NCBI RefSeq assembly: GCF_037044555.1
Contig: NZ_CP146275.1
Span: 1,778,501-1,842,500 of the forward strand
Source: Pelagibacterium nitratireducens
Lineage (GTDB): Bacteria > Pseudomonadota > Alphaproteobacteria > Rhizobiales > Devosiaceae
Direction of reading: 5' to 3'
DNA: 64,000 bases
Both the position numbers and the translations under genes were made by a program. The notes below the pieces were generated by a model that saw nothing but the letters and a program-made list of their open reading frames with translations, was not told the origin of the DNA and did no database searches. Shown here in pieces: positions 33,558 through 50,962 of this stretch; positions within the stretch are counted from its first letter, which is position 1, and each line of letters opens with the position of its first letter.

Positions 33558-33677
33558 GTAAGCGAGAAGCCCACCCCGTCTGGTGACGGCCGACATCCGG
33601 CGGTATTGGCACCCGAGAATTTGTGATGGGTGTTATGTTCTATGTCTACGACTATGCCTGGAGATGGAAGTTTTCAT

Positions 33678-34028
33678 ATGATCGAGGCGGTGCCTGATCG
33701 TATGGAGGGCGCGCCTGTCGCTCGGCGGCGCCGGTGGTCGGATGCGTTCAAGGCCGAGATGGTGGCGCGCTGTCTTGAGCCTGGGGCCAACGTGTCGGCG
33801 CTGGCGCGCGAGATCGGGATTTCTCCTTCGCAGTTGTTCGGTTGGCGCACCGAGGCATTCAAGCGCGGCGAGGTCGCAAAACGCGATGACGATGCAGGAG
33901 TGGTAGCCGCCGCAAGGTCTGAGCGCGGTATGATCGAGATCGTGGTCAGTGACACGGTGGTCCGGGTTGGCTCCGATGTCGGAGACGCCCATCTGCGGCG
34001 GGTAATCCGCGCTGTGCGGTCGGCATGA
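33678..34028 (+). CDS. tnpA: IS66 accessory protein TnpA
   Basis: The helix-turn-helix protein of IS66 elements (RRRWSDAFKAEMVARCLEPGANVSALAREIGISPSQLFGWRTEAFKRG). The ATG at 33678 (MIEAVPDRMEGAP) is preferred; the frame is open 16 codons further upstream. The stop overlaps the start of tnpB. Confidence 0.9.
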   Translation: MIEAVPDRMEGAPVARRRRWSDAFKAEMVARCLEPGANVSALAREIGISPSQLFGWRTEAFKRGEVAKRDDDAGVVAAARSERGMIEIVVSDTVVRVGSDVGDAHLRRVIRAVRSA

Positions 34029-34369
34029 TCCCTACGGGTGTAAAGGTTTATCTGGCCAGCCAGCCCGTGGACTTTCGCAAGGGGCCAGACGGTCTTGTTG
34101 GTCTGGTGCGCGATGCTGGAGCGGACCCCTTCAATGGCGCGCTCTATGTCTTTCGCGCCAAGCGGGCCGACCGGATCAAGATCGTGTGGTGGGATGGCAC
34201 CGGACTTTGCCTTTACGCCAAGCGGTTGGAGAAGGCGGCGTTCTGCTGGCCGCGGATTGGTAATACTCGGGTGCAGATGAGCTACGCACAGCTGCTGGCA
34301 CTGATCGAGGGGATGGACTGGAAGCGGGTGCGAACAGTGCCGGTGAACCGGCCGCAATCTGCTGGGTAA
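34025..34369 (+). CDS. tnpB: IS66 accessory protein TnpB
   Basis: A 114-residue protein of the IS66 Orf2 family (MIPTGVKVYLASQPVDFRKGPDGL, RADRIKIVWWDGTGLCLYAKRLEKAAFCWP). It starts within the tnpA stop (ATGA overlap), so the two are translationally coupled. Required for efficient transposition in studied IS66 elements. Confidence 0.95.
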   Translation: MIPTGVKVYLASQPVDFRKGPDGLVGLVRDAGADPFNGALYVFRAKRADRIKIVWWDGTGLCLYAKRLEKAAFCWPRIGNTRVQMSYAQLLALIEGMDWKRVRTVPVNRPQSAG

Positions 34370-34442
34370 ACGTCTGCGGCAGACTGACTCAGGGAGCGCA
34401 AAAAGCCAGGCAATCGGGGGTGTTTTGTGCCATGATCGCGGC

Positions 34443-36077
34443 ATGAACCCGGCCGATTTGCATGCGCTCCCCGATGACGTCCACGCCCTCAAGGCGATGA
34501 TCGTGGCGGCCCAGGACAGGGTGGCGTCGGCCGAGCAGCGGCGCCGGGCTCTGGAAGCTGAAATCGCCGCGCATGAGGCCGAGATTGCCGCCATGAAGGC
34601 GGACAAGGCTGCCGACGCGGAAAAGATCGGCCGGCTGGAATCCATCATCGCCCTGCTGCAGCGGGCCCAATACGGCACTCGCTCGGAAAAGCTGCGGATC
34701 GCCCCCCTTGATGACGAGCAGATGGCTTTCGCCTTTGATGAGTTGCGGACCGGTCTTGGCGAGATCGAGGCCAAACGCGAAAAGCAATCCGGACAAGCCG
34801 CGCTCCGTCCTCCGCGTCCCCGGAAAGGGTTTGCACCGCACCTGGAGCGGATCGAGGAGGTGATCGAGCCCGAGGTGCCGGCCGAGTGCGAAGGCCTTGA
34901 TGCCGTGCGGATCGGTGAGGACGTCACCGAGCGCCTCGATGTGACGCCGGCCAGGTTCCGCGTCATCGTCACCCGTCGCCCCAAATACGCCTATCGCCTG
35001 GCGGACGGCCAGGATCGCATCGCGCAGGCTCCGGCGCCCAACCATCTCATTGCCGGCGGCATTCCCACCGAGGCGGTGCTGGCCCAGGTGGCGGTCAGCA
35101 AATACGCCGATGGCCTACCGCTCTATCGCCAGGAAGAGATTTACTCTCGTGATGGGGTGGAGCTGGATCGGTCTCTGATGGCGCAATGGATGGGGCGGCT
35201 GAGCTTCGAGCTCGAGCCACTCGCCCACCATGTTCTCAAAACCATCAAGCTCGGTGAGCGGGTTTTTGCCGACGAGACCCGGCTTCCGACCCTGGCGCCT
35301 GGCACTGGCAAGGTGAAAACAGCTTGGCTTTGGGCTTATGCCCGGGACGACCGGACCTTTGGAGGATCAAGTCCACCGATGGTGGCCTATTGCTTCGAAG
35401 ACAGCAGATCAGGCGAATGCGTCGCCCGGCATCTGGACGGCTATCGCGGGATCCTGCAGATCGACGGCTATGCTGCCTATAACCGACTGGGCAAAGCGAG
35501 TGGCGCCAACGACGCCATGACGCTCGCCGGGTGCTGGGCGCACGCACGGCGCAAGTTCTTCGATCTCCAGGCCAGTGACGGTTCGCCCTTTGCCGGTGCC
35601 GTGGTGACGGCGATGGCACCGCTGTGGGCCATCGAAGACGACATTCGTGGTCACGACCCCGATCTGCGCGCCGCCATCAGAGCCGAGAAGTCCGCGCCGA
35701 TCGTGAGCGACCTGCTCGCCGTTCTGGACCGGGAACTGCCCCGCATCTCGGGGAAATCGAAACTGGCCGAGGCGATCCGCTACACGCTCGCCCGGCGTGC
35801 CGTGCTCGAACGCTTCCTCTCGGATGGCCGCATCGAGCTCGACTCCAATATCGTCGAGCGCGCCATCAGACCCCAGACCATTACGCGCAAGAACAGCCTT
35901 TTTGCCGGCAGTGACGGGGGCGGCCGCTCCTGGGCAACCATCGCAACGTTGCTCATCACGGCCAAGATGAACGATGTCGACCCACATGTTTGGCTCACCC
36001 AGACCCTCGAGCGTATCGCCAATGGCTGGCCCAACAGCGACATCGACGCCCTCATGCCCTGGAACTACGCCGGCTGA
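34443..36077 (+). CDS. tnpC: IS66 transposase TnpC
   Basis: A 544-residue DDE transposase. An N-terminal leucine-rich coiled coil (ALKAMIVAAQDRVASAEQRRRALEAEIAAHEAEIAA) is followed by the IS66 linker (RAQYGTRSEKLR). The catalytic domain follows (VFADETRLPTLAPGTGKVKTAWLWAYARDDR, LQIDGYAAYNRL, CWAHARRKFFDL), ending with the IS66 C-terminal motif SNIVERAIRPQTITRKNSLFAGSDGGG. The ATG at 34443 is preferred to one six codons upstream. The gene appears intact. Confidence 0.95.
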   Translation: MNPADLHALPDDVHALKAMIVAAQDRVASAEQRRRALEAEIAAHEAEIAAMKADKAADAEKIGRLESIIALLQRAQYGTRSEKLRIAPLDDEQMAFAFDELRTGLGEIEAKREKQSGQAALRPPRPRKGFAPHLERIEEVIEPEVPAECEGLDAVRIGEDVTERLDVTPARFRVIVTRRPKYAYRLADGQDRIAQAPAPNHLIAGGIPTEAVLAQVAVSKYADGLPLYRQEEIYSRDGVELDRSLMAQWMGRLSFELEPLAHHVLKTIKLGERVFADETRLPTLAPGTGKVKTAWLWAYARDDRTFGGSSPPMVAYCFEDSRSGECVARHLDGYRGILQIDGYAAYNRLGKASGANDAMTLAGCWAHARRKFFDLQASDGSPFAGAVVTAMAPLWAIEDDIRGHDPDLRAAIRAEKSAPIVSDLLAVLDRELPRISGKSKLAEAIRYTLARRAVLERFLSDGRIELDSNIVERAIRPQTITRKNSLFAGSDGGGRSWATIATLLITAKMNDVDPHVWLTQTLERIANGWPNSDIDALMPWNYAG

Positions 36078-36099
36078 ACGGTCCTGCCTTCTCGCTTAC

Positions 36100-37442
36100 A
36101 CTCGATCGAAGATCGGATTGATAGATGCTCCTTGGACGATTGGACGAACGTGCCCCTCCTTCATCAGCAATGGGAACACGGTCCGTTCGCAGTTAATATA
36201 TGTCCGCGCGCTCTTTAGTGACATCGCGCGGCTCAGCTGATCCAGCAACTTTGCGTTTGGCTCCAGCGGGAACAGCACGTGGTTGTGGAATGGCGACGGG
36301 TCGGCTGGGACGACCCCGGCCGTCGCCAGGTATGACCGCAGGGTCTGCGGGTGCAGTCCAACGTCCTTGGAGGCGGTCCAAATGGAATGTATTATCCGCT
36401 TCTCAACGGGTCTACCGAGGATAGTGTCTCCGGGGCCGACTGGCGTCGAGTCAATTAGATGCTGGCGGACGATGTCCTTTATCGGCTCGATGTCCGGATC
36501 GCGTGTTTCCGTCAACCAGAGGTAGAAATTGCCGAAATCGGATCTGGCGCCGTCACGGGAATCCCGGCCTTCCTGGGTTTGCAGATCCGACAGGAATGCC
36601 TGCAGCGCGTCGGGACCATGCCGGACAATTTGGTAGCCAGCATCACCTGCAGTCCGCCATTGATTCCGCGTATGCTCAATATGGGTTGCCCAGCGCCCAA
36701 AGCTTGCGACAGACCCCAGTATTTCGCACAGGCGAATGGCCATAGTGAAACCGATAGTGTCGATCCATTGGTCGCCGCGTTTAGTCATGCGGGCGTAGAT
36801 GTAATGCTCGAAATCGGTGGCAGGACGATGCACAGATCCTTCCGTCAGTTTCTGCAGGTTCGGCAAATGAGGGAGGATTTGACGATGGAAGTCGTGACCT
36901 CGATCGCTTCTCGGCACCGTAGTCTGATGGAGAGGCAGCGAATGGCGATGACAAGTCATGTAAGGGCGTGCCGACCAAACATAGCGGAAGTAGGGTGCCA
37001 AGTGGACACGCCGGTCGTAAGCAGCCATGTCTTCTTGCAGACACGAGGGGCAGAACTGCATCACGCCATGCAAACGGGCGAGCGGGGACAAATCGTTGCC
37101 GCGAAACCGCAGCGTGCGTCGGTCCTGACGAACGAATAGGTTGGCCAGCAAAGGTTGCGGATCCGTTCGCGTCAACCGTGCGAGTGTCAGAACAGAAGAG
37201 CGTTCACCATTGACGAGGGCCTTGAACGGAAATCCCATATCGTCACAAAAGTTGACGGCCGAGGGTTGAAAATTGCATGCGCCTGTTCGGCTCCCGAACG
37301 AAGGCACCGTCTCGTCTTGGGCATGCTCCACCGTAAGTCGAAGATGATTTAGTATGGCCCTTCCTCCCGTTTCTGGCGCCGCTTCTTTGCTGCTGCTTCC
37401 GGCTCCGTGCGCATATAGCTGAGTGTGTCGATTGACAACCAA
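36100..37442 (-). pseudogene. tniQ: tniQ 5' fragment (split by IS66 element)
   Basis: N-terminal part of a TniQ-family protein, which directs Tn7-like transposition to its target and contacts TnsC. It shows the TniQ zinc-finger pattern (FCPSCLQEDMAAYDRRVHLAPYFRYVWSARPYMTCHRHSLPLH) and a helical target-binding part. The frame runs into the insertion element and stops within its end. The true start is uncertain: the open frame begins at 37442 but overlaps the end of tnsC by 94 bases, and homology-like sequence begins near RLTVEHAQDETVPSF, so translation may start around 37345-37370. Confidence 0.85.
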
Positions 37443-38437
37443 TCCGACACCACGAATGGATTGGCATCGGGCTCACAGCGGGTGCGTAGGTGATAGGCCT
37501 GCTCGAAGTGCTGCAATGTGAGCTTGGAGTCTCGGTCGAGAAGCGCCACTTCGATGGCTTCAAGAACCAGGTCCATCGTGATGCCGAACTGTCGTGTGCT
37601 GGCGTGTATCAAACGCTCGATCAAACCGCTGAGTGAATTGTCCAACTGCAATTCGCTCAGTCGCACATACTTTGCGACAATTCGTTTGACGTTGGCCGCG
37701 TCCTTTACTGCGTCCAGCTGGGGACAATGAACGGGAAGGAACCTGCGCCTCATCTCGTACTCGTCGACGATCGCCTGTACACGCGGAATACCCGACAATA
37801 TGAGAATGGGACGATGGCTGTGGGCCATCCAGCGCTTGAAAGTGGACCGGAGGACCTTCAATGTATTGGGCCCACCGTTCGTGAGGTCGTGCGCCTCGTC
37901 GATACAGAGTCCCCACACGCCAAGCTCCTCCGCCATATCGCGGAAAGTCGCCCAGATGTCGGCGTTGTTGTCTTTGTCATCGGTCGTGGGAACAACCGGG
38001 TCATTACGTTTTTGTGGATATAGACACCGCAAGGCTTCCAAACCCAGGCTCTTGTTGGACACCGGGCTCGGCACATCCATCGAAATTAGTGGACATTCGG
38101 CATCTTGCTCACCGTAGCCCGGCAGCATGGTGTGATTGCTGAAAAAGTTGCGCAGCATACGTGACTTTCCGGCCCCGGAATCGCCTATGACCAGCAGCCC
38201 TGCATGCTTGCGCTCTGGCGCTGGAGCGGCCCGCAGATCTAGCAAGCGCTGAAAATTGCTTGCGAGGATGTGATCGCGCTGAGTGTTGACATACAGCTCC
38301 TGCAGTTCAGCAATCTTGGACGTGACGGTCGCGACATGCGCCTCGTCGTCCGACCTCGTGGACGCTCTACGCCCCACAGGGGGGTCCCACTGATCCAGTG
38401 CGATGACCCCCCTGTTCCCATCTTTAAGTGCCGTCAT
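37349..38437 (-). CDS. tnsC: TnsC/TniB-type AAA+ transposition regulator
   Basis: A 362-residue AAA+ ATPase that couples target selection to the transposase. Walker A GDSGAGKSR (about residue 87), Walker B WGLCIDEAHDL (about 175) and a sensor segment ILILSGIPRVQAIVDEYEMRRRF are all present, in the TniB arrangement. Its ATG overlaps the TGA of tnsB (ATGA), indicating coupled translation. The extended N-terminus (LQELYVNTQRDHILASNFQRLLDL) is typical of TniB and probably contacts the transposase tail. Confidence 0.92.
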   Translation of the reverse strand: MTALKDGNRGVIALDQWDPPVGRRASTRSDDEAHVATVTSKIAELQELYVNTQRDHILASNFQRLLDLRAAPAPERKHAGLLVIGDSGAGKSRMLRNFFSNHTMLPGYGEQDAECPLISMDVPSPVSNKSLGLEALRCLYPQKRNDPVVPTTDDKDNNADIWATFRDMAEELGVWGLCIDEAHDLTNGGPNTLKVLRSTFKRWMAHSHRPILILSGIPRVQAIVDEYEMRRRFLPVHCPQLDAVKDAANVKRIVAKYVRLSELQLDNSLSGLIERLIHASTRQFGITMDLVLEAIEVALLDRDSKLTLQHFEQAYHLRTRCEPDANPFVVSDWLSIDTLSYMRTEPEAAAKKRRQKREEGPY

Positions 38438-40590
38438 TTGTCTGTAAAATCCCAGTCATCCTGCTGAGGGGAGGAAGGTTGTGTGGCGTTCTGGTCCTCT
38501 TCACTGATCGTCTCGACCGCCTCTCCAAGCTGACCGTCCACGACAGGCATATCGTCATGCGCCATCGCGTATTTGCCAAAAATTCGTTTTTCGGCGCGGT
38601 CGATTTGTTCAGCGGAGACCTCACTGTAGAGAATGGTTGCCCGTGAGCGGGCGTTGTCCTGGATACCCCGAATAGCCTGCTTGGCAGCGTGCCGGGCCAT
38701 AACGCGTCTTTCCTTATCCTCGTCCTTGATGTGCCGCTCTGCCGCGCAGACCGCCTGCCAATCCTTGATTGAAACCCCTTTCATGTCTGGATCTAGACAG
38801 GGGGCAGCTGTCCACGTGTCGGTGCGGACCGAAATGTATCCCAGGTCGTCTGGGTCATAGGCGATCTCAAGTTCACCGCCCCCATGAAGGTAGTGCTTAT
38901 CGATCTCATCATTGGTGTAGTGCAGACCTTGATGAGTGATCCCATAGCGGGTCGCGCGCTTGCGCTTTCGAAAGCCAAACGCTACGCGTGTATGGTTTGC
39001 GTCTGGGCGACCCGTGACGCCGTAACGATCCGTTTGTTTCTCCCAGGCCTCATAGGGTGTTTTGCCGTTCAGTTCCTTGTGCGGCATATTGTGATAGTAC
39101 CCAACCACACCGGCGACCATCACTCGAGCCAACTCGTCATCGGTAAGCGATGCAAATGCCTTACTTGGATAGTCGCCGCGTTCGCGGACGTTGGAAAACG
39201 TCCGACCATCCACGCGGGGATAGACGTATGTGCCAACGGTTCTGAAAATCCGTTCACCTACGCCTCGTTGTGCAGGATCGCCGGCCGGAGCATAGAGAAC
39301 CTTGACACCCAAGTCCGAAAGGGCAGTGCGGGTTCGGTCGCTGATATTCCCCGATCCCTGATCCATAACGACCTGCGAAAAGCCGCCGCATTGATGCCAA
39401 CTGAGATTTTCGCCTTCCAACCCGCCCAACAAATGGGACTTGTCCTCCAAGATCATTTTGAACGTCGGGATAGCTGCTTCGGTCGAGCCCTTGTTTGCAA
39501 TGTGCATTCCGACAACGCAGCGCGTGGCCACGTCAATTGCCACACCCAGCCAGCGCCGCTTGCGCTTGATTTTCGCGCGCTGTTCTTCTGACAGCACGGT
39601 CCAAACGCCAGACAATGTTGCCAGGGTCAGGAGGTCGACCGGGCTTTCATCGAACTCGATGCGTTGGAGTGGAACCAGCGTCTCAGTGCTGCCGCGGACG
39701 GCGGGCATTCTTTTGACGGCGTAGTCTATGCCATGCCGCCCACACATTACTGTAAACTTGTCGAGCCGATTGATGGCTGCCAGTATGGTTTTTCGGTCCG
39801 GAACCCGAAGAAGCTCAGGTGGTTCACACTCCTCGCCCTTGGAGACCTGTTCCAGATGGGAATGGCGTCTCGCGACGTTGATAAGGACAACGCGATCCTG
39901 CGTGTCTATTACGATCTGAGACTTGTGGGGCTTTGCCAGAGTCGCGTATTTGGCCACTTCTTCCGAAATAATCGCAGCCACTTCGGGTTGTAGCAAACTG
40001 CCCCCGCAAAGCGGTTTCCGATCGCCGAGATGCAGGATATCTCCGACGTTTTTGAGATAGTCCCGCCGCCATTGAAGAACCCGACGTGCCCCGGGCCGCT
40101 TACGAAGCCGATAGCTTGTGCCGCCACCCGGCTTGTCGGCGCGAAGCTGTCGTTCCTTTTGTATCTCATCAACCTTGTCGCCCAATGAGCCAGCGATGGC
40201 TATCGCCACCGATTTGTGGGTGAGAGATACTTCGCCTTGTTCGTGCATTGCGATCAGAGTCAGCACATAGTCTTCACGCCAACGCATCATAGAAGTTGAC
40301 TGATCCGACAGGTCGCCCATCAGCATGGCGCCAAGCGCGCTATGAGCCTTTACGACGTCGGGGTGCAACCCTTCGGGGATACGACTGAAATTTGCGGTCT
40401 GTCTGATTTCGTCATACTGGGCGTGAGTGAACGCCGCACTCACGTCGGGGCGGTCGATCTCACGCAGTACTTGACCGTCCTTCGTGCTGGATTGCACGGA
40501 ATACTTCACGGCGTTGATCGTGATCATGTCATGGAGACCAAGCCGTTCCCACGGCTTGGTCAAACCAGTTGCATCGCGCTGTTCAGACAT
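38434..40590 (-). CDS. tnsB: TnsB/TniA-type DDE transposase
   Basis: A 718-residue transposase with an rve-type integrase core. An N-terminal DNA-binding region with tandem helical domains (about 60-300) precedes the catalytic residues: Asp in RIEFDESPVDLL (about 316), Asp in VVMDQGSGN (about 410) and Glu in RGVGERIFRTV (about 447). A beta-barrel (Mu-C-like) domain follows (HKELNGKTPYEAWEK, then ISVRTDTWTAAPC). A charged C-terminal tail (to EEDQNATQPSSPQQDDWDF) resembles the TnsC-contacting tail of TnsB. It overlaps tnsA by eight bases at its start. Confidence 0.92.
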   Translation of the reverse strand: MSEQRDATGLTKPWERLGLHDMITINAVKYSVQSSTKDGQVLREIDRPDVSAAFTHAQYDEIRQTANFSRIPEGLHPDVVKAHSALGAMLMGDLSDQSTSMMRWREDYVLTLIAMHEQGEVSLTHKSVAIAIAGSLGDKVDEIQKERQLRADKPGGGTSYRLRKRPGARRVLQWRRDYLKNVGDILHLGDRKPLCGGSLLQPEVAAIISEEVAKYATLAKPHKSQIVIDTQDRVVLINVARRHSHLEQVSKGEECEPPELLRVPDRKTILAAINRLDKFTVMCGRHGIDYAVKRMPAVRGSTETLVPLQRIEFDESPVDLLTLATLSGVWTVLSEEQRAKIKRKRRWLGVAIDVATRCVVGMHIANKGSTEAAIPTFKMILEDKSHLLGGLEGENLSWHQCGGFSQVVMDQGSGNISDRTRTALSDLGVKVLYAPAGDPAQRGVGERIFRTVGTYVYPRVDGRTFSNVRERGDYPSKAFASLTDDELARVMVAGVVGYYHNMPHKELNGKTPYEAWEKQTDRYGVTGRPDANHTRVAFGFRKRKRATRYGITHQGLHYTNDEIDKHYLHGGGELEIAYDPDDLGYISVRTDTWTAAPCLDPDMKGVSIKDWQAVCAAERHIKDEDKERRVMARHAAKQAIRGIQDNARSRATILYSEVSAEQIDRAEKRIFGKYAMAHDDMPVVDGQLGEAVETISEEDQNATQPSSPQQDDWDFTDK

Positions 40591-41287
40591 CGCGATCCCT
40601 CACGGTCTCAATTTTGGAATCGGGATCGAGACGCGTGACGGAGCGTTTCGCAAGTTTGCCGGCGGCAATCAGACGAACAACCGAACCGAAGAAGCGTGGA
40701 CCGACTCCACTGATTTTGCGAAGCGTCTTGAGCGGATATATGCCGTTCAAAGTGTGTGCAGCTTCCAAAACAGCGGCGTCAGCCTCGTTGTCGGGCCGGC
40801 GAAGATAGTGGAATGTCAGCTCGGCATCGCGGTCCTGCACGCGACTGAAGCTTTTTTCCGTGACGATGCGGACCTCGTGACCACACGCGCGCCGCACGCG
40901 GGCCATCTGGTCCACAAACGGGCGAAAGCCATTCTCCTCGACACGGTATGCACGATCGTGCGGTTTGACGGCGTAACCAATCTGTTTTCCGCAAGCATAG
41001 GTTACAAGAAAATCGAAGGTGTGCGTGTGGCTCTCGCCAAGCTCGTCAAAGTAAGTGACCGGGGGCGCCTGATCCCAGATATCGACGACGTGACGATCAG
41101 TCAGCAAGACGTGCAAGGTCGTGCACTCAAGCAGAGATTCATATGTAAAGATCCGTTCCGACCCGCGGAACTTCCAGACCAGAGCGCCACGAAAGCTGAA
41201 CCGACCTCGCAAGCTGATCTTGCGGGTTGCACGGGAGGGTTCGACGGGGTGAAAGGGCATTCCCCCGTCATGATGGTGAGTAGACAT
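40583..41287 (-). CDS. tnsA: TnsA-type transposition endonuclease
   Basis: A 234-residue endonuclease that would cut the 5' strands at the transposon ends, allowing cut-and-paste movement. The N-terminal catalytic domain has RKISLRGRFSFRGALVWKF leading to FTYESLLE (Glu 50 or 54), HTFDFLV (Asp 92) and GYAVKP (Lys 108), matching the E-D-K restriction-enzyme-like active site of TnsA. The C-terminal half (ADAAVLEAAHTLNGIYPLKTLRKISGVGPRFFGSVVRLIAAGKLAKRSVTRLDPDSKI) is a winged-helix TnsA-C-like domain. First gene of the tns operon. Confidence 0.85.
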   Translation of the reverse strand: MSTHHHDGGMPFHPVEPSRATRKISLRGRFSFRGALVWKFRGSERIFTYESLLECTTLHVLLTDRHVVDIWDQAPPVTYFDELGESHTHTFDFLVTYACGKQIGYAVKPHDRAYRVEENGFRPFVDQMARVRRACGHEVRIVTEKSFSRVQDRDAELTFHYLRRPDNEADAAVLEAAHTLNGIYPLKTLRKISGVGPRFFGSVVRLIAAGKLAKRSVTRLDPDSKIETVRDRDV

Positions 41288-41929: not shown

Positions 41930-42007
41930 TGAGCTACTCCCCGAAAATGGGACGCTGACGTAAGCTAGGAATTGTTGTCTGCTGGTCTTCGACGATGGAG
42001 ATCAGAG

Positions 42008-42301
42008 ATGTCGAAACGCAAGCAGCATTCGCCCGAGTTCAAGGCGAAGGTCGCCCTGGAAGCATTGAAGGGCGAAGAGACGGTATCGGAATTGGCGAGC
42101 CGGTTCGGAATTCACCCCACGATGATCCACCAATGGAAACGGGCGTTGCTCGAAGGGGCATCGGGTGTGTTCGAGCGCGGCGGGCGCAAAAGGCCTGAGA
42201 TTGACGATGAACAGGTCAAGGATCTGCATGCCAAGATCGGAGAGCTGGCCGTCGCCAACGATTTTTTGTCCAGAAAGCTCAAGCCTTGGGGCGGGAAGTG
42301 A
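42008..42301 (+). CDS. IS3-family OrfA
   Basis: A 97-residue helix-turn-helix protein (MSKRKQHSPEFKAKVALEALKGEETVSELASRFGIHPTMIHQWKRALLEGA) with a C-terminal leucine-zipper-like stretch. The end overlaps orfB in another frame, so a fused OrfAB made by programmed frameshifting is expected for the family. The TTTTTTG and AGAAAGC runs near 42262-42276 are candidate slippage areas. Confidence 0.93.
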   Translation: MSKRKQHSPEFKAKVALEALKGEETVSELASRFGIHPTMIHQWKRALLEGASGVFERGGRKRPEIDDEQVKDLHAKIGELAVANDFLSRKLKPWGGK

Positions 42302-43161
42302 GGCGAGGGATGATAGAACCTGATCACCCCGTGCTCTCAATTGGCAAACAGTGCACGCTGCTGTCGATCGCGCGCTCTTCGTTCTACTACACGCCGAAAG
42401 GCGAGACCGAGATCAACCTTGCCCTGATGCGCAGGATCGATGGGCAATTCCTGGAGACGCCCTTCTTCGGAGTCCGGCAGATGACCTGGCACCTGCGCAA
42501 TGAAGGTCACGTGATAAACGAGAAGCGCGTGCGTCGGCTGATGCGGCTCATGGGCCTGATGCCGATTTATCAGAAGCCCAATACCTCGAGACCAGCCAAG
42601 GGGCACAAGATCTGGCCCTATCTTCTGAAGGGGTTGAGGGTGGAGCGCCCGAACCAGGCCTGGGCTGCGGATATCACGTATTTACCGATGCGCCGGGGCT
42701 TTCTCTACCTGGTGGCCATCATGGACTGGCACACCCGCAAGGTCTTGGCATGGCGCATCTCGAACACGCTGGAGGCAGACTTCTGCATCGAGGCGTTGAA
42801 CGAGGCGGTCCACAAGTTCGGTCCGCCCGAGATCATGAACACCGATCAGGGGAGCCAGTTCACGTCCTTTGCCTGGACCGATCGGTTGCGACGAATGGGG
42901 GTGCGCATCTCCATGGATGGCAAGGGCCGGTTCCTCGACAACATCTTTGTCGAGCGGCTCTGGAGAACCCTCAAATACGAATGCGTCTACCTGCACGCCT
43001 GGGAGACCGGGTCACAGGCCCGCGCCGGCGTCCGCGAATGGGTGGACTTCTATAATAACCGACGCCCTCATTCCGCCCTTGGCGGAAAACCGCCTGCCGT
43101 GATCTATTGGCAGCGCATTGACCAAAACCAACCCGACCAGCAGGTGCAACGAGTAGCTTAA
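42286..43161 (+). CDS. IS3-family transposase OrfB
   Basis: A 291-residue integrase-type transposase. An N-terminal HTH_21-like segment (YGVRQMTWHLRNEGH-type, here FFGVRQMTWHLRNEGHVINEKRVRRLMRLMGL) precedes the rve core. The catalytic acids are Asp in WAADITYLP, Asp in MNTDQGSQFTS and Glu in NIFVERLWRTLKYE, followed by the family motif YNNRRPHSALGGKPPAVIY. It appears intact. Confidence 0.95.
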   Translation: MGREVRRGMIEPDHPVLSIGKQCTLLSIARSSFYYTPKGETEINLALMRRIDGQFLETPFFGVRQMTWHLRNEGHVINEKRVRRLMRLMGLMPIYQKPNTSRPAKGHKIWPYLLKGLRVERPNQAWAADITYLPMRRGFLYLVAIMDWHTRKVLAWRISNTLEADFCIEALNEAVHKFGPPEIMNTDQGSQFTSFAWTDRLRRMGVRISMDGKGRFLDNIFVERLWRTLKYECVYLHAWETGSQARAGVREWVDFYNNRRPHSALGGKPPAVIYWQRIDQNQPDQQVQRVA

Positions 43162-43197: not shown

Positions 43198-45033
43198 TCA
43201 AACCTCCCTTTGGGACTTGAGCTCGCGAGCGACTGCAAGAAGCTTGTCTCGGTGGTCCGAGAGTAGGGATCGCGTTTCTGTATAGAGCCTATTCAGGTGG
43301 CCGTTGACGCCCTCCCGGAAATCAGAATCTATTGTCATGAGCGATCCCCACACGTTTGAGCCGCCGCGGTAGGCCAGCGTTGGTCCGAACCCGAAGCTTG
43401 CGTGGAGCGATGCAATGCTTTCCGTAGCGACCGAAATGTCGGAATCTTCGCGTCCGCCCCAACCGAGGCAAGCTTCTCCCAAGAGGAGCTCTTCGCTAAT
43501 CCGGCCGGCCAGCAACACTCTTGATTTTTTTTCAAACTCTGCCGCGGTTTCGATACTGCTGTTGGAAAGGTTTAAGGTTGCCCCACCGAATTCGCCTGCC
43601 GACCCTACCACCGATACCGACGTCAAACTGATGTCTAGCAATACGGCGGCTACGGCATGTCCTGCTTCATGCACGCAAACTCGCCAATCCTGCTCCGATG
43701 AGAGCTTGGGTCGGCGGGGAATCTGCTCCGCAAGGTCCTCCAAGACCATATCCCGTTTGTGACGCCTGGCAGTGCGTCGCGCAGCCCGCACCCATTCCAT
43801 GACATTCGCCCCGGTTGCCTGCGACGCGGCACCTCTTTCCGCGACCTCGCGCAAATCAAAGTCGCTGAGTGTATCCCGCAGATGATGCCGAAAAATCCGT
43901 TCGATCCCCCTCGCAGTCGGCGGTCCGATTTCGATGGCTCGTTCCAGCCGCCCGGGCCGCAACAAAGCGGGATTGATATCCTCGATCCTGTTCGTCGCCC
44001 CGATCACGATGACACCGTCGCGATCAGCCATCGCTGAATCCAGCAAATTGTAGAAATCGAGGATCACAGGCGACCACCAATCTTTACCTCTGCCTTCGAG
44101 GTGGGTGATGTCGGGTAGGGCATTGATCTCATCGAGAAACAGTATCGAAGGCGCCAATTGTCGAGCTCGGTCAAACGCCGCTCTTTGAGCTTTAATGACC
44201 GAGTCCAGATGGCCCTCCGTGCTGGCGAAGAATTCGCCCATGGAGGTGGCGACCGTGGAGACATCGCAGAGCGGGCCGAGGGCCTGGGCAAAGAGGGATT
44301 TCCCAGTCCCCGGAGGACCAAATAAAACACATCCGCGATCGACCTCAGCCCATGTGATTTCGCCGCGTCGTAGCGCATCGAGATCATCGCGCAGGGTCAG
44401 GGCCCATTCGCGTGCCTGCCCGTATTCGACAGCGTCCCGCAAATCGGGCAGGTCCTGACGCGTCACCATTGATGTTTTCTGGCTGGCAACGTTGCCCAAC
44501 AGATTGACGATCTCGGAAGCACGCCTGCCTGGCGTCAAGACTGCCGCCAACTCATCGAAATCTAGGACATCAAGGCGCACCTTGTCGAAGCCGGGTGGAA
44601 TTCGGCCTCTTGCGATCGTCTTTATAACCTTGCGAACCATTGAGTGATCGGGCTTAGCGACCGTCACGCGCGCCTCCGCAACAGTTTTCAACAGGTCAGG
44701 GAGGTAGCGCTCAGGATCCTGCGAAACGCCGACCACTACCTGTGCGCGATCAAACCGGCTTAGAAAGCTTGCTGTCTGCCGCGACGGCTTTACTGTTCCT
44801 GTCGCCAACTCTACGTGCATACGAGATTGGGTTTCGAACGATGCGATGACTGAATTCTGTATTGGCTCAGCCCAGGCAACACTTGGCACCTCGATGATCA
44901 AGGTGAGGGGTCTGCCCTCTTTGATCTTGCGGCGTAAGGCGACCGGCAACGCCTTATGGAGGACGAGGTCAGAGAGGAACTCTGCTGCATCGTTGTCTTG
45001 GATGTCGGCGGATGAAATTCTGGAAAATGCCAT
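43198..45033 (-). CDS. Soluble FtsH-like AAA+ zinc metalloprotease, C-terminus truncated by IS3
   Basis: A 611-residue ATP-dependent protease. After a 190-residue N-terminal domain of unknown type come a AAA+ module and a peptidase M41 domain. The AAA+ module has Walker A GPPGTGKS (about 240), Walker B SILFLDEI (about 300), sensor GATNR and arginine finger LRPGRLER. The M41 domain has HEAGH (about 456) and a downstream Asp in GREDSDISVA as third zinc ligand. Unlike FtsH it has no membrane helices, so it is probably cytosolic. The present stop is inside the IS3 end; the restored protein would have 644 residues. It lies 26 bases after a small gene on the same strand, forming a three-gene module. 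The substrate is unknown. Confidence 0.87.
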   Translation of the reverse strand: MAFSRISSADIQDNDAAEFLSDLVLHKALPVALRRKIKEGRPLTLIIEVPSVAWAEPIQNSVIASFETQSRMHVELATGTVKPSRQTASFLSRFDRAQVVVGVSQDPERYLPDLLKTVAEARVTVAKPDHSMVRKVIKTIARGRIPPGFDKVRLDVLDFDELAAVLTPGRRASEIVNLLGNVASQKTSMVTRQDLPDLRDAVEYGQAREWALTLRDDLDALRRGEITWAEVDRGCVLFGPPGTGKSLFAQALGPLCDVSTVATSMGEFFASTEGHLDSVIKAQRAAFDRARQLAPSILFLDEINALPDITHLEGRGKDWWSPVILDFYNLLDSAMADRDGVIVIGATNRIEDINPALLRPGRLERAIEIGPPTARGIERIFRHHLRDTLSDFDLREVAERGAASQATGANVMEWVRAARRTARRHKRDMVLEDLAEQIPRRPKLSSEQDWRVCVHEAGHAVAAVLLDISLTSVSVVGSAGEFGGATLNLSNSSIETAAEFEKKSRVLLAGRISEELLLGEACLGWGGREDSDISVATESIASLHASFGFGPTLAYRGGSNVWGSLMTIDSDFREGVNGHLNRLYTETRSLLSDHRDKLLAVARELKSQREV

Positions 45034-45059
45034 TGGTAGCCTCTTGGGGGTTGTGTCGA

Positions 45060-45680
45060 TCAGGCGCTGGGCACCGCGAGGCTGATGATGGAGTCAGGCA
45101 GCAAAATTCGTGACAGATCGATTGTCAGAACACCCTCCGAGATAAGTTGGAAAATCGCTGCCACTGGATCAGGATGGGTCAGGTCATTGGCGCAGTCATT
45201 GATCGAGGCGCTCCCACCGCTTGCGATGATGTGTGCAAGAATCTGCATGCGGGCGGTTGGTGGTATGTGCGTGCCGACAGCATCGGCGATCGCCAGCGCT
45301 GTATTCAGCCGGGGCTGACGCTGGACGGCAGATTCCGGGATCAGGACGACCCTTTGACCCCCATCTGCAGCTGCACGTTTGAGTGCCATGAGCTGCGGTC
45401 CATCCCGATGCCACGTCAGATATGGAGCGCAGACCAAAGTTACGGCGCGGCAGCCAATGCGAAGCGCTTCCACCGCCACGTCGAATGGCCGGAACCCAAA
45501 CTGACGAAGCAAAACTTCCAATCGAGGAGTATTCTCGATGAGGTGGACGTCGGGACAGAGCGCTATCAGGGCACGGAGATTTCGTGACAGCCGATCGTGT
45601 CGGCGCTTTCTGGATGCAATACTCGAAGTTGAGAGAGGCGCGTGATCGCTCGACGACGGGATGGCCGTGATCATGGACAT
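45060..45680 (-). CDS. Protein of unknown function, possible TnsA-like fold (module partner 2)
   Basis: A 206-residue soluble protein directly upstream of the AAA/M41 protease. Its middle (ENTPRLEVLLRQFGFRPFDVAVEAL, then PYLTWHRDGPQLMALKRAAADGGQRVVLIPESAVQRQP) resembles the product of the next gene upstream. Its C-terminal half (RMQILAHIIASGGSASINDCANDL, DPVAAIFQLISEGVLTIDLSRILLPDSII) resembles the C-terminal half of the nearby TnsA in residue pattern (a Glu near ITE/IPE, then a winged-helix-like segment ending in PDS-I). The TnsA catalytic Lys is not evident. I read it as a possible inactive TnsA relative; this is inference from pattern by eye. Confidence 0.6.
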   Translation of the reverse strand: MSMITAIPSSSDHAPLSTSSIASRKRRHDRLSRNLRALIALCPDVHLIENTPRLEVLLRQFGFRPFDVAVEALRIGCRAVTLVCAPYLTWHRDGPQLMALKRAAADGGQRVVLIPESAVQRQPRLNTALAIADAVGTHIPPTARMQILAHIIASGGSASINDCANDLTHPDPVAAIFQLISEGVLTIDLSRILLPDSIISLAVPSA

Positions 45681-45758
45681 GACAGATCCTTTCCCCGACC
45701 AGCAACGGCGGGTAGCGAAAGTTCAAAATGGTGAGTGAAGGGGGGGCTCTAGAGGAGC

Positions 45759-46223
45759 TCAGGGAGAAGGAAAGTGTCCGGGGGGAAGGACGGCGCCGAA
45801 CTCATTCGGTGTATGGGGAGAGAGCGGCCCCGTAATTGTCGCCGGACGCAGCAGCAGATCTAGTGTGAATTCTCTCTGACGAGTGAGCTTGAAATGGATA
45901 CCCACTTCGTCCGCGAGTCCAGTGAGCTTTTTCAGCTTCGCCCTGGCTGTATTGTGATGCCAAATCCGGTCGGGCAACATTGCCAGGATGTGCGGTGCTC
46001 CATCGGCCGTCAGTCGTGCGGTCACGAAATCGTAACTGGCGAAACCAGCCTTTTTCGCCAGACCTCTGAGAACGCGATGTTGGCCGTGCCATGTGACATT
46101 GGGCGTATTGGCAACTACGGTCCGCAGAGTGCCGAGGAAGTATCGATGTTCTCTAATGTGTCTGGCACGCCGCTGATCGTAATGGGATAAGTCGGAGCGT
46201 CGCGGGTATGCGTCTTTGACCAT
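45759..46223 (-). CDS. Protein of unknown function, paralogous to its downstream neighbour (module partner 1)
   Basis: A 154-residue soluble basic protein, first gene of the AAA/M41 module. It aligns by pattern with residues about 25-125 of the next protein: RR..RH/RL, then NTP, FASYDFVTARL against FRPFDVAVEAL, and RIWHHNTARAKLKKLTGLADEVGIHFKLTRQ against LTWHRDGPQLMALKRAAADGGQRVVLIPE. The C-terminal winged-helix-like half is missing and is replaced by a Pro-rich tail. No family recognised. An XRE regulator is divergent from it across 188 bases. Confidence 0.6.
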   Translation of the reverse strand: MVKDAYPRRSDLSHYDQRRARHIREHRYFLGTLRTVVANTPNVTWHGQHRVLRGLAKKAGFASYDFVTARLTADGAPHILAMLPDRIWHHNTARAKLKKLTGLADEVGIHFKLTRQREFTLDLLLRPATITGPLSPHTPNEFGAVLPPGHFPSP

Positions 46224-46675: not shown

Positions 46676-46781
46676 AGAGTTAAGGCTGTTCTTGAAGCTA
46701 CCCATCTGAACTGCCCCACAATCAGCATCCGAGTTCGATACGATCGCTGAAATGGGAAAAGGCGCAACATTCCTCTGTTGC

Positions 46782-46796
46782 GAACAAAACAGGAAT
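46782..46796 (+). promoter_or_regulatory. Possible degenerate SOS box at the helicase start
   Basis: GAAC-N7-GAAT, one base off the alphaproteobacterial LexA consensus GAAC-N7-GAAC, and very similar in its spacer to the perfect box at 50139-50153. It overlaps the first ATG of the helicase gene, so if functional the real start would be downstream (ATG at 46813). Confidence 0.4.
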
Positions 46797-48897
46797 GCGT
46801 TTCCATCGGCTCATGCTTGCCGACGATCGATTCGCCGCCACCGACACGACCTATCTCGACGCGCTCAACGCCAATCAGCGTCGGGCGGTGGAGCATGGAA
46901 TAGCGGCTTCCACGACAGGTCCGCTGCTGGTGATCGCCGGCGCGGGTTCGGGCAAGACCAACACCTTGGCCCATCGTGTCGCCCATCTAATGGTCAATGG
47001 TGCCGATCCGCGACGCATGTTGCTTTTGACCTTTTCGCGCCGTGCCGCCACCGAAATGAGCCGGCGGGTGGAGCGTATTGCGGCGCGCGTGCTGGGCGTG
47101 GGTTCGGGCGCCGTGACCGATGCACTGACCTGGGCGGGCACGTTCCATGGCATCGGCGCGCGGCTCTTGCGCGAACATGCCCACCAGATCGGGCTCGATC
47201 CAGCGTTCACCATCCATGATCGCGAAGATGCTGCCGACCTCATGAACCTTGTGCGTCACGAACTCAAGTTGAGCGAAACCGCCTCGCGGTTTCCCACCAA
47301 GGGCACGTGCCTTTCGATCTATTCACGGGTCGTCAATGCTCAGGCCGATCTCGATGAGGTGCTTGAAAAGACATTTCCCTGGTGCGCCATGTGGTCGGCG
47401 GAACTCAGGACCTTGTTCGGTGCCTATGTCGCGGCCAAGCAGGCCCAGAACGTTCTCGATTACGATGACTTGCTGCTCTATTGGGCCGCGATGATGGACG
47501 AGCCGGCCATCGCCCAGGCGGTGTCCGATATGTTCGATCATATCCTTGTCGACGAATATCAGGATACCAACAAGCTCCAGTCCGCGATCCTTTTGGCCAT
47601 GCGTCCGAGCGGGCAGGGGCTGACGGTGGTGGGTGACGACGCCCAATCGATCTATTCGTTTCGGGCGGCCACGGTTCGCAACATTCTGGATTTTCCCGCT
47701 GCGTTCACACCCAGCGCCGAGATCGTTACCCTTGATCGCAACTATCGCTCGACCCAGCCCATCCTCGCCGCAGCCAACGCTGTCATCGAGCAGGCGACCG
47801 AACGCTTCACCAAGAACCTTTGGTCTGAACGGCAATCGGAAGCCAAGCCCCAACTTGTGACGGTCAAGGACGGTGCCGATCAGGTGGGTTACATCGCCAC
47901 CTCGATCCTGGAGGCGCGCGAGGCCGGAACACCGCTCAAGGAGCAGGCTGTGTTGTTCCGCACATCGAGCCATTCCGGTCCGCTCGAGATCGAGCTGACC
48001 CGCCGCAACATTCCTTTCGTCAAATTCGGTGGGCTGAAGTTTCTGGACGCCGCACACATCAAGGACATGCTGTCCGTGTTGCGCTGGGTGGAAAATCCGC
48101 GGGATCGTGTTGCCGGGTTTCGGGTGCTGCAGCTGATGCCCGGCATCGGCCCGGGCACGGCAGGTCGGGTTCTTGATGCCCTCGACACAAGTTCGGACCC
48201 GGTCTGGGCTCTCTCCGAGGTGCCGGCGCCAGCAAAAGCCGGTCAGAACTGGACCTATCTCGTCACGCTGTTTGGTCGGTTGTCGGGACGGGACATCTCA
48301 TGGCCGGTTGAACTCTCCTATGTCCGCCAGTGGTATGAGCCCTTGCTGGAAGCCGGGTATGAAGATGCACACATGCGCACGGCCGACATCATTCAGCTCG
48401 AACAGATCGCAAGCGGATATCCGAGCCGGGATCGCTTCCTGACCGAACTCACCCTCGATCCGCCCGATGCCACGAGTGACCAGCCGGGCGTCCCGCTTCG
48501 CGATGAGGATTACCTCATCTTGTCGACCATTCACTCGGCCAAGGGTCAGGAATGGAAGTCGGTGCATGTCCTCAACGTGGTCGATGGGTGCATTCCCTCA
48601 GACCTCGGCGTGGGAACGACCGAGGAGCTCGAAGAAGAGCGCCGGCTGCTGTATGTCGCCATGACCCGGGCCAAGGACGAGCTGCACCTGCTGGTGCCGC
48701 AGAAATTCTACGTGACCCAGCAATCGCGCTATGGCGATAGGCACCTCTATGCTCAACGCACCCGCTTCATCCCGCGCGCCATGACCCATCTGTTCGATGA
48801 CGTCTTGTGGCCCCCGGTAACGCCGGTTCGAGCCGACCTGGGACCGTCACAGCCCACACGTGTGGATGTGGCGGCAAAGATGCGCAGCATGTGGTGA
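46795..48897 (+). CDS. UvrD/PcrA-type ATP-dependent DNA helicase
   Basis: A 700-residue superfamily 1A helicase. Motif I GAGSGKTNTLAHRVAHL (about residue 45), motif Ia LLLTFSRRAATEM, motif II LVDEYQDTN, motif III VVGDDAQSIYSFRAA, motif IV LDRNYRSTQPIL, motif V STIHSAKGQEW and motif VI RLLYVAMTRAKDEL are all present. It is slightly shorter than UvrD (about 720). It sits in front of a SOS mutagenesis block and converges with dinB. The start is uncertain between 46795 and 46813; neither has a strong ribosome-binding site. Confidence 0.93.
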   Translation: MRFHRLMLADDRFAATDTTYLDALNANQRRAVEHGIAASTTGPLLVIAGAGSGKTNTLAHRVAHLMVNGADPRRMLLLTFSRRAATEMSRRVERIAARVLGVGSGAVTDALTWAGTFHGIGARLLREHAHQIGLDPAFTIHDREDAADLMNLVRHELKLSETASRFPTKGTCLSIYSRVVNAQADLDEVLEKTFPWCAMWSAELRTLFGAYVAAKQAQNVLDYDDLLLYWAAMMDEPAIAQAVSDMFDHILVDEYQDTNKLQSAILLAMRPSGQGLTVVGDDAQSIYSFRAATVRNILDFPAAFTPSAEIVTLDRNYRSTQPILAAANAVIEQATERFTKNLWSERQSEAKPQLVTVKDGADQVGYIATSILEAREAGTPLKEQAVLFRTSSHSGPLEIELTRRNIPFVKFGGLKFLDAAHIKDMLSVLRWVENPRDRVAGFRVLQLMPGIGPGTAGRVLDALDTSSDPVWALSEVPAPAKAGQNWTYLVTLFGRLSGRDISWPVELSYVRQWYEPLLEAGYEDAHMRTADIIQLEQIASGYPSRDRFLTELTLDPPDATSDQPGVPLRDEDYLILSTIHSAKGQEWKSVHVLNVVDGCIPSDLGVGTTEELEEERRLLYVAMTRAKDELHLLVPQKFYVTQQSRYGDRHLYAQRTRFIPRAMTHLFDDVLWPPVTPVRADLGPSQPTRVDVAAKMRSMW

Positions 48898-48924: not shown

Positions 48925-50040
48925 TTACAACGCCAAGCTCAGCTGCTCGGCATCATCGGCACGATCCGACCTGTCGGCAAAGCCCGACAGGCTCACCCCC
49001 AGCAGCCTTATGCCTTTTTTGACCGGAAACACCGGCTCGAGAAGAGTGTGGGCGACGGCCTCGACGTCAACGCGTGTTCGCAACGGGTGCGACGTTGTCC
49101 GACTGCGGGTGATGATCGCGAAGTCGGAATATTTGACCTTGAGCGTCAACGTGCGGCCATAGAGCGCCTTGGCCTCGGCATGGCGCCAGACCTTGTCGAT
49201 GATGGGCGCCAGTTTTTCCTTGGCCTCGGACAGATCGTGCACATCGTCAAAAAAGGTGTTCTCGCCCCCCACCGACTTTCGGATGCGATCGGTTTTGACC
49301 CGGCGATGATCAACACCGCGGGCAATCCAGTAGTAATAGCTCCCCGATGATCGGAATTTCTCCTGAAGGAAGGGTAGGGGCTTTGCCTTGAGATCGGCTC
49401 CAGTCTCGATGCCTAGCGCTTTCATGCGGGCTGCCGTGGCTGGACCAATTCCGTGGAATTTCTCGATTGGCAGAGTCTCGACAAACGCCGGGCCCTTCGC
49501 CGGCGTGATGACGAACTGGCCGTTGGGCTTGTTGTATCCGGACGCCATCTTGGCCAGGAACTTATTGTAGGAAATCCCGGCAGAGGCAGTCAGCCCTGTC
49601 ACCTCGAATATCCTGGCCCGGATTGCTTCGGCGATTTCGCTGGCGATCGCCATGCCCTTAAAATTCTCGGTGACGTCGAGATAGGCCTCATCGAGCGAGA
49701 GGGGTTCAATAAGGTCGGTGTATTGGCCAAAGATTTCATGGATTTGCGCCGATACTTTCTTGTAGATTTCGAACCGTGGTTTAACGAAGATCAGATCCGG
49801 GCATTTGCGTGCGGCGGTCACAGACGGCATGGCCGAGCGCACACCGAACTGGCGGGCCTCATAGCTGGCGGCAGCAACCACACCGCGCTTTTTTGCGCCG
49901 CCCACGGCGACCGGCTTGCCACGCAGATCGGGATCGTCGCGCTGTTCGACCGAGGCAAAGAATGCATCCATATCGACATGGATGATCTTGCGGATGTCTC
50001 CGTTATCGCGATCTGATGTCGGCTTATCCCCAGGCTGCAC
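48925..50040 (-). CDS. dinB: DNA polymerase IV (Y-family)
   Basis: A 371-residue translesion polymerase. The catalytic motifs are IIHVDMDAFFASVEQRDDP (first Asp pair), SAMPSVTAARKCPDLIFV, and LSLDEAYLDVTEN (SLDEAYLD with the second catalytic Asp/Glu). The palm-thumb region GISYNKFLAKMASGYNKPNGQFVI and the helix-hairpin-helix GIGPATAARMKALGI follow. The C-terminus carries the little-finger domain but ends without an obvious beta-clamp motif beyond DAEQLSLAL (QLSLAL), which does fit the clamp-binding consensus QLxLF loosely. Divergent from imuA across the SOS box. Confidence 0.95.
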   Translation of the reverse strand: MQPGDKPTSDRDNGDIRKIIHVDMDAFFASVEQRDDPDLRGKPVAVGGAKKRGVVAAASYEARQFGVRSAMPSVTAARKCPDLIFVKPRFEIYKKVSAQIHEIFGQYTDLIEPLSLDEAYLDVTENFKGMAIASEIAEAIRARIFEVTGLTASAGISYNKFLAKMASGYNKPNGQFVITPAKGPAFVETLPIEKFHGIGPATAARMKALGIETGADLKAKPLPFLQEKFRSSGSYYYWIARGVDHRRVKTDRIRKSVGGENTFFDDVHDLSEAKEKLAPIIDKVWRHAEAKALYGRTLTLKVKYSDFAIITRSRTTSHPLRTRVDVEAVAHTLLEPVFPVKKGIRLLGVSLSGFADRSDRADDAEQLSLAL

Positions 50041-50138
50041 GCCGATAAATCCTTGTAAGTGCTGATCAAGCTGCGCGCGTTATATCCGCTCGCACAAGAG
50101 TTGATCGGAGACCAATTGACTCTTGCCTTGCGTTGCGC

Positions 50139-50153
50139 GAACAAAAGAGGAAC
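50139..50153 (+). promoter_or_regulatory. SOS (LexA) box upstream of imuA
   Basis: GAACAAAAGAGGAAC is an exact GAAC-N7-GAAC, the LexA operator of alphaproteobacteria. It lies 48 bases before the imuA start and about 100 bases before the divergent dinB start, so it could control both directions. Confidence 0.88.
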
Positions 50154-50200
50154 ATACCTCCTGTTCTCGCAATTGGAAAGACACGCCGAACGGCGAAATC

Positions 50201-50962
50201 ATGGCCTCACCCTCGAAAAGCAATGCCATTGCCGAGCTGCGAGATCGTATCGCCGATCTCGAGGGCCAAAATACGCTCGTGCGCAAAGCACTGGCCTTCG
50301 GGATTGCTGCAATCGACAGCCGTCTGCCCAATGGCGGCTTGTCTCTGGGTGGTCTGCACGAGATCGCCGGCGGCGGCAATGGCGCCATTGATGGAGCGGC
50401 GGCTGCCCATTTTGCGGCGGGGATCGCTGCACGAACGCGCGGCAAGGTGCTCTGGTGCGTGACACGCCAGGACCTGTTCGCACCGGCGCTCGAACAGGCG
50501 GGCCTTGCTGCCGATCGGGTTGTCTATGTCGAGGCCGGAGATGACAAGACACTTCTCGCCTGCATGGAAGAAGGCTTAAGGCATGGCGGGCTTGGTGCGG
50601 TTGTGGGCGAGATTGCTCGATTGTCGATGACGGCGTCGCGGCGGCTGCAGCTGGCCGCCGAAGGCACGGGAACGATCGGGATCGCACTGCGGCGCTGGCG
50701 ACGGCAGGCCGAAGCCATGGATTTTGGGCAACCAACGGCAGCTTTGACCCGCTGGCGCATCTCGGCCCTACCGTCTCGACCATTGCCGGTCCCAGGTGTC
50801 GGCCGGGCACGCTGGCTGGTGGAACTGATCCGAGCAAGGGCAGGGGAAAGTCTCGATATTGAAGTGGAGGCGTGCGATGGCTCGGGTCATCTCGGTCTTC
50901 CTGCCGAACTGGCCGATCGATCGGCTGCGGCGGGGGGCTGGCGACACAGCGCCGCCAGTTGA
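50201..50962 (+). CDS. imuA: ImuA, SOS mutagenesis RecA-like protein
   Basis: A 253-residue protein, first of the imuA-imuB-dnaE2 mutasome cassette. It has a RecA/SulA-like fold: FGIAAIDSRLPNGGLSLGGLHEIAG, then GKVLWCVTRQDLFAPALEQAGL and LGAVVGEIARLSMTASRRLQLAAEGTGTIGIAL. The canonical Walker A of RecA is not conserved, as usual for ImuA. The ATG at 50201 (MASPSKSNAIAEL) is chosen; the frame is open 26 codons further upstream but that would overlap the SOS box. The 3' end overlaps imuB by 86 bases. Confidence 0.92.
   Translation: MASPSKSNAIAELRDRIADLEGQNTLVRKALAFGIAAIDSRLPNGGLSLGGLHEIAGGGNGAIDGAAAAHFAAGIAARTRGKVLWCVTRQDLFAPALEQAGLAADRVVYVEAGDDKTLLACMEEGLRHGGLGAVVGEIARLSMTASRRLQLAAEGTGTIGIALRRWRRQAEAMDFGQPTAALTRWRISALPSRPLPVPGVGRARWLVELIRARAGESLDIEVEACDGSGHLGLPAELADRSAAAGGWRHSAAS

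Follow-up and report, generated by a model that had tools for sequence, protein, structure and literature searches.

Several described systems bear on the genes presented here. FtsH combines an AAA module with an M41 peptidase, ImmA/ImmR-type switches of integrative and conjugative elements (ICEs) pair an XRE regulator with ImmA, a small metalloprotease that has no AAA motor, and in IetAS an AAA ATPase is paired with a protease of another family that is a separate protein. ClpX, encoded by the host and lacking a peptidase domain, is an AAA+ unfoldase that acts with CRISPR-associated transposons (CAST) and also with Mu. Passages of one study state that ClpX raised PseCAST integration approximately 4-fold in human cells and that it is believed to take the complex left after transposition apart (PMC12326709). 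Here we analyzed a stretch of 64,000 nucleotides of Pelagibacterium nitratireducens (contig NZ_CP146275.1, positions 1,778,501-1,842,500; "the window", to whose positions all window coordinates below refer), which contains the genes for TnsA, TnsB, TnsC and TniQ in this order (41287-36096, minus strand), i.e. a Tn7-like gene set, and beside it a putative module of three genes encoding two small proteins of 206 and 154 residues (S206 and S154) and an AAA+ protease of the M41 family (Table 1). An earlier examination of the letters alone (the sequence-only reading) had described these as three consecutive genes on one strand with short gaps and a divergent XRE regulator, which the open reading frames (ORFs) confirm. 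ClpX might serve as a working model for an AAA+ unfoldase acting with the transposition system in the window; in contrast to ClpX, however, the M41 protease is encoded by the element itself and has a peptidase domain.

S206 has the predicted two-domain fold of TnsA. At E ≤ 1 no Pfam or PADLOC model matched S206 or S154, and their NCBIfam matches were insignificant (0.11 and 0.028). The AlphaFold2 model of S206 (predicted local distance difference test score, pLDDT, of 87.6) found TnsA in its four best Foldseek hits, aligned across both domains, and TnsA was the sole match in the PDB with E < 1e-3. A profile-profile comparison with hhalign also paired the S206 family with genuine TnsA proteins over its length (E 1.2e-5). 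The TnsA alignment behind this value excludes two proteins, from loci L039 and L043, that are very close to S; an earlier alignment which included them (A2) gave E 3e-11 and does not serve as our main evidence. A control profile made from the N-terminal domain of the M41 protease, for which kinship is not expected, reached E 0.015 and a probability of 3%. Fold, profile and whole-genome matches rule out a chance resemblance. The likeness of the IPE/VTE and PDS-I stretches to TnsA, noticed by eye in the sequence-only reading, is borne out by the profile-profile alignment, in which these positions are paired.

The TnsA protein encoded in the window contains E54, Q73, D92 and K108, which are invariant in all 11 rows of the TnsA alignment (A3). 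Positions 32, 51, 67 and 83 of S206 were paired by hand with these four residues from the hhalign output, at 14% identity. In two overlapping sets of S proteins (A1 with 16 rows and A4 with 20 rows), glutamate at position 32, glutamine at 51 and lysine at 83 occur in 0/16 and 0/20 rows, and the position of D92 (67 in S206) is occupied by aspartate or glutamate in 15/16 and 20/20. Thus, in contrast to TnsA of Tn7 (PDB 1t0f, 1f1z, 9bw1), with which S206 shares 8-13% identity in structure alignments, the S proteins are without E, Q and K at the aligned columns, and an intact TnsA is encoded alongside them. S206 looks like a catalytically degenerate and probably inactive copy of TnsA (pseudo-TnsA). 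Proteins resembling both S and TnsA were also seen in the tnsA position before tnsB in two other elements (L039:9497-10261 and L043:8943-9617); by eye, the catalytic residues of TnsA are absent from them, and these elements may transpose without cutting by TnsA.

The second small protein, S154, is a shorter relative of S206. A profile of S206 and five database relatives, run against 2615 ORFs, retrieved S154 at E 9e-6, a six-frame search of the genome with the S family profile detected it at E 3e-10, and a further profile match had E 8e-9. By these matches S206 and S154 are paralogues, as the sequence-only reading had proposed from a shared residue pattern. S154 matches the N-terminal part of S206, and a winged-helix half was not recognised in it; its single-sequence AlphaFold2 model was uninformative (pLDDT 47.6). 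The suggestion that both small proteins are degenerate versions of the TnsA fold is therefore supported for S206, in fold, profile match and lost catalytic positions, whereas for S154 it comes down to kinship with S206. A second subfamily of S was recognised by eye (L034:9300-9920 and proteins P0008, P0010, P0012, P0013 and P0015-P0019); at L034, the locus of this subfamily that was read, S adjoins a KfrA_N gene and is accompanied by neither M41 nor tns genes.

The third protein of the module matches the Pfam families AAA (2e-23) and Peptidase_M41 (1.4e-9). Like FtsH it has an AAA module and an M41 peptidase with catalytic residues, but with the FtsH model it reaches 138 bits, the equivalog cut-off being 600. 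Because this match spans residues 229-605 only, the N-terminus of FtsH, which includes a membrane region, is, as far as can be judged from the sequence, replaced by a domain of its own of approximately 200 residues, and the protease is predicted to be soluble. The N-terminal 200 residues form a separate domain (alignment A5), which by eye resembles a worn AAA half. K245, D301/E302, H455/E456/H459 and D532 are invariant in all 13 aligned sequences, including that of the window (A7); we take them to be the Walker A lysine, the Walker B DE, the HExxH motif and, for D532, the expected third zinc ligand. Both the AAA and the M41 sites are present, and the active site of the protease is predicted to be intact. 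At two loci (L219 and L220) the AAA and peptidase parts of M41 are apparently separate proteins, at L219 with an ORF of the DUF6634 type between them.

Searches with S206 matched 21/151 related genomes and searches with the S alignment 21/397 genomes of the order, while the N-terminal domain of M41 matched 5/385 genomes of the class and 14/398 of a phylum sample, 13 of the 17 distinct genomes matched belonging to the order of the window. Named M41 loci come from Devosia, Bradyrhizobium, Rhodoblastus, Methylobacterium, Bosea, Roseomonas and two Rhizobiales/Hyphomicrobiales records, and records of S proteins from Methylopila, Chenggangzhangella and an uncultured Devosia. Among the named loci found from M41, 14/20 contain tnsB (12/18 if the two loci used to build the query are set aside). 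The N-terminal domain of M41 located 27 places, of which 25 were examined (the weak matches G1130 and G091 were left out); tnsB is present at 8/25 and, after removal of six profile builders, at 4/19. As the M41 queries derive mainly from tns-linked proteins, these tnsB counts are not free of bias. In the opposite direction, a search with TnsA located 23 places, of which 20 were examined: 16 have M41, three do not, and one lies at a contig start; excluding the latter and seven profile builders, M41 occurs at 9/12.

Pooled over the searches, the set comprises 74 M41 loci, some of them located by way of S or TnsA. One fragment and four duplicates had been removed beforehand, three of the latter identical and one at 99.9%; near-copies such as L030/L031 and L221/L222 count as separate loci. 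In this pool tnsB accompanies M41 at 42 loci, downstream on the same strand at 39 and on the opposite strand at three. M41 thus recurrently lies upstream of tnsA, at a distance of 0.2-3.1 kb (median 0.8 kb; 37 loci with a recognised tnsA). S stands in front of M41 at 26 of the 42 tns-linked loci, with two copies at seven of them, and a DUF6634-type gene, so labelled after the Pfam match of one member (6.9e-11), is present at 14. Of the 26 tns-linked loci with S, 18 have an XRE gene, always divergent, no more than 5 kb upstream of M41, compared with 1/16 loci without S; because XRE accompanies S in this way, the pairing suggests that both are jointly controlled. The genome of the window carries two further M41 copies, one (G000:C1:1249163, L024) with S, a DUF6634-type gene and XRE and with tns genes not nearby, the other (G000:C1:299179, L225) with a different partner of the DUF4357 type. 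No paper on DUF6634 was found in the open-licence literature.

The position of the module within a complete element could be read in one relative inserted at gyrB. In the family concerned gyrB DNA (named by NCBIfam) was matched in 18/18 genomes, and three of 13 readable gyrB junctions are occupied (G123, G164 and G447), the element starting 1-6 bases past the gyrB stop codon with TGTC and TGAGTCTA-type repeats. The empty gyrB site continues elsewhere in the three occupied genomes, so the second end in G164 was located by its motif. The complete element (G164:C16:329683-387707) is 58,025 bp long, has ends of the type TGTCGAATT(T/C)CAAAATAA and is flanked on both outer sides by GTGAT, a 5-bp duplication; S and M41 are located 8-10 kb inside it. 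For G123 and G447 no second end was found. We also considered that the module might lie outside the transposon, with an element end between M41 and tnsA; in G164 this is ruled out by the positions of end-type sites (up to four mismatches), which occur in both end regions and once in mid-element at 54 kb and never in the gap between M41 and tnsA. Locus L278 has three perfect 18-base sites behind tniQ and no further copy in its 19.9 kb. The gyrB target is close to parE, which is a known target (PMC11406308), and parE models also match the gyrB gene here, below their cut-off.

Our tentative interpretation is that the trio represents a portable accessory module of an alphaproteobacterial lineage of Tn7-like transposons which controls transposition. 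We favour control of transposition because S206 has a TnsA fold without its active site, the protease site is conserved in 13/13 sequences, tnsB lies downstream on the same strand in 39/42 tns-linked loci, and also because M41 is present at 9/12 places found from TnsA, the 58,025-bp element encloses the module, and S precedes M41 in 26/42 loci. The pseudo-TnsA proteins would have kept the body of TnsA, and S206 also its C-terminal winged-helix half, and could act as recognition subunits or decoys, marking transposition proteins, or their regulator, for the protease ring, which would then pull these proteins apart or degrade them. A pseudo-TnsA could replace TnsA on TnsB, TnsC or the element ends, or deliver such proteins to the protease, and the XRE protein might repress the module. 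We consider it rather doubtful that the protease is, more specifically, a dedicated transposon unfoldase whose pseudo-TnsA adaptors attach to complexes of the TnsB/TnsC type, either of the own element or of a rival, and pull them apart; if true, the module would be a transposon-borne counterpart of ClpX and a means of policing between transposons.

Nuclease-dead TnsA-like proteins in front of an AAA+ protease, and next to a normal TnsA, point to a proteolytic control of transposition that is part of the transposon itself. How complexes of the Tn7 type are disassembled after insertion is also a practical question, as ClpX helps CAST tools in human cells, and a natural protease carried by the element would make this step testable. 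Judged by titles and the beginnings of abstracts, no module pairing Tn7 with a protease was found among the open-licence papers listed; passages of two Tn7 surveys (PMC10293859, PMC8649781) do not mention such a module, and the words protease, peptidase and FtsH are absent from the main text of the latter.

A number of observations weigh against the interpretation as a control of transposition. The trio is not invariant: 16 of the 42 tns-linked loci lack a recognised S before M41, and at 32 of the 74 M41 loci the stretch read does not contain tnsB, so that the predicted conservation of the neighbourhood applies to the recurrence of M41 beside tns genes rather than to the complete trio. Distances between TnsB and TnsC are correlated (r = 0.65, P 0.001; 37 loci, five tns-linked loci having been dropped for missing or broken genes), whereas those between M41 and TnsB are not (r = -0.03, P 0.67; same loci), and over 25 loci neither those of S and TnsB (r = 0.09, P 0.10) nor those of S and M41 (r = 0.11, P 0.16) are correlated. 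In 6/37 cases the locus with the closest TnsB is also the one with the closest M41, compared with 22/37 for TnsB and TnsC. At three Bradyrhizobium loci M41 is 85-89% identical between best pairs, while the TnsB proteins encoded there are closest, at 31-35%, to those of other loci; the reverse is seen for L209 and L276, with 80% identity in TnsB and 46% in M41. DNA homology ends within the last 20-80 bases of M41, near the boundary with tnsA. Because of the missing correlations, the Bradyrhizobium loci and this homology break, we conclude that the M41 block has been swapped between elements with very different transposases and yet keeps its position. Such exchange between unrelated transposases argues against a role fitted to one set of TnsABC partners; it also shows modularity on the tnsA side, in addition to that of target selectors, which is known (PMC10293859, title). 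Moreover, at seven loci without tns genes M41 has another partner of 404-511 residues, whose N-terminal part resembles the winged helix of S. Two of three such partners scanned match DUF4357 below the Pfam cut-off (25 and 22 of 38 bits) and the third does not match; a GIY-YIG-like stretch was noticed by eye only, and Pfam reports none. At L091 two pairs of a partner and M41 are arranged back to back and divergent.

These features would fit a role in defence or competition, in which the protease and its partners recognise phages or rival transposons and degrade them or abort, the pseudo-TnsA serving as a decoy for foreign TnsB/TnsC, and the genes being kept as cargo beside tnsA. We regard this explanation as rather unlikely, although it accommodates both the swapping of the block among tns cassettes that are unrelated and its occurrence without tns genes: S is present at 12 of the 32 loci without tnsB, a DUF6634-type gene at 17 and the different partner at 7. 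Four tns-free loci are near a related serine recombinase-type gene (confirmed in one case, Resolvase 1.7e-26). The AAA part also weakly matches the defence ATPase IetA (PADLOC, 1.2e-10), perhaps just through the shared AAA domain, and the window protein reaches 40 bits with the IteA model, whose cut-off is 510. However, neither small protein matches a PADLOC model at E ≤ 1, and ordinary cargo is not expected to hold one position and strand at nearly all tns-linked loci, as M41 does.

It is less probable that the module is a derepression switch, in which a signal sensed by S leads the protease to remove the XRE repressor and thereby activates either the module or the tns genes downstream, analogous to ImmA, which acts on ImmR in ICEs. 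The association of XRE with S and the common strand of M41 and tns genes agree with such a switch, but the gap between M41 and tnsA is long for a single operon, and loci without S and XRE retain M41. Finally, hitch-hiking cargo for protein quality control directed at the host and unrelated to transposition is very improbable, for although parts of one report describe accessory FtsH genes riding on genomic islands of Pseudomonas aeruginosa clone C (PMC6629908, in these parts of which Tn7 is a laboratory tool only), the partner proteins here are homologous to TnsA itself and the position is recurrent. Taken as a whole, the sequence-only reading of degenerate TnsA-fold proteins working with an unfoldase-protease in transposon control or defence is partly supported.

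Table 1. Positions of the module, the tns genes and the inserted elements in the window
Feature	Positions	Strand	Remarks
S154, 154 aa	46223-45759	-	first of three consecutive ORFs
S206, 206 aa	45680-45060	-	78 bp after S154
M41 protease, 611 aa	45033-43198	-	26 bp after S206
XRE/HTH_3 regulator, 87 aa	46412-46675	+	divergent, 188 bp from S154; HTH_3 1.9e-10
tnsA	40583-41287	-	Pfam Tn7_TnsA-like_N 4.2e-6; E54, Q73, D92, K108 present
tnsB, transposase	38434-40590	-	Mu-transpos_C 7.9e-7, rve 4.4e-5; PADLOC TnsB 8.9e-16
tnsC, TniB-type AAA ATPase	37349-38437	-	TniB 1.9e-13
tniQ/tnsD, first part	36096-37442	-	Pfam TniQ 1.1e-13
tniQ/tnsD, C-terminal part	33012-33596	-	cut off from first part by IS66 element
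IS66 element genes inside tniQ	33630-36077	+	IS66 transposase 1.6e-118 for 34425-36077
IS3 element genes between tnsA and M41	41972-43161	+	IS3 transposase 2.1e-81 for 42286-43161

The Tn7-like element of the window itself looks decayed. A relative (L038) encodes a single unbroken TniQ of 679 residues, which matches both tniQ pieces of the window; since the IS66 element interrupts tniQ and an IS3 element separates tnsA from M41, the Tn7-like element has probably lost the ability to move by itself. In the window, a side-to-side comparison, a TGTGGG candidate and a reading of the tniQ side revealed neither a pair of ends nor a duplication, and nothing there matched the sequences that precede the uvrD-like gene in 11 relatives (L115-L125). 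Beside the end of tniQ, an ORF at 32062-32721 encodes a metalloprotease of the ImmA/IrrE type (Pfam Peptidase_M78 6.1e-15). On the other side of the module, the uvrD-like gene is preceded by a motif (46760-46800) that is conserved in two relatives and looks like an alphaproteobacterial SOS box, and genes for DNA polymerase IV and an ImuA-like protein come next (48925-50962).

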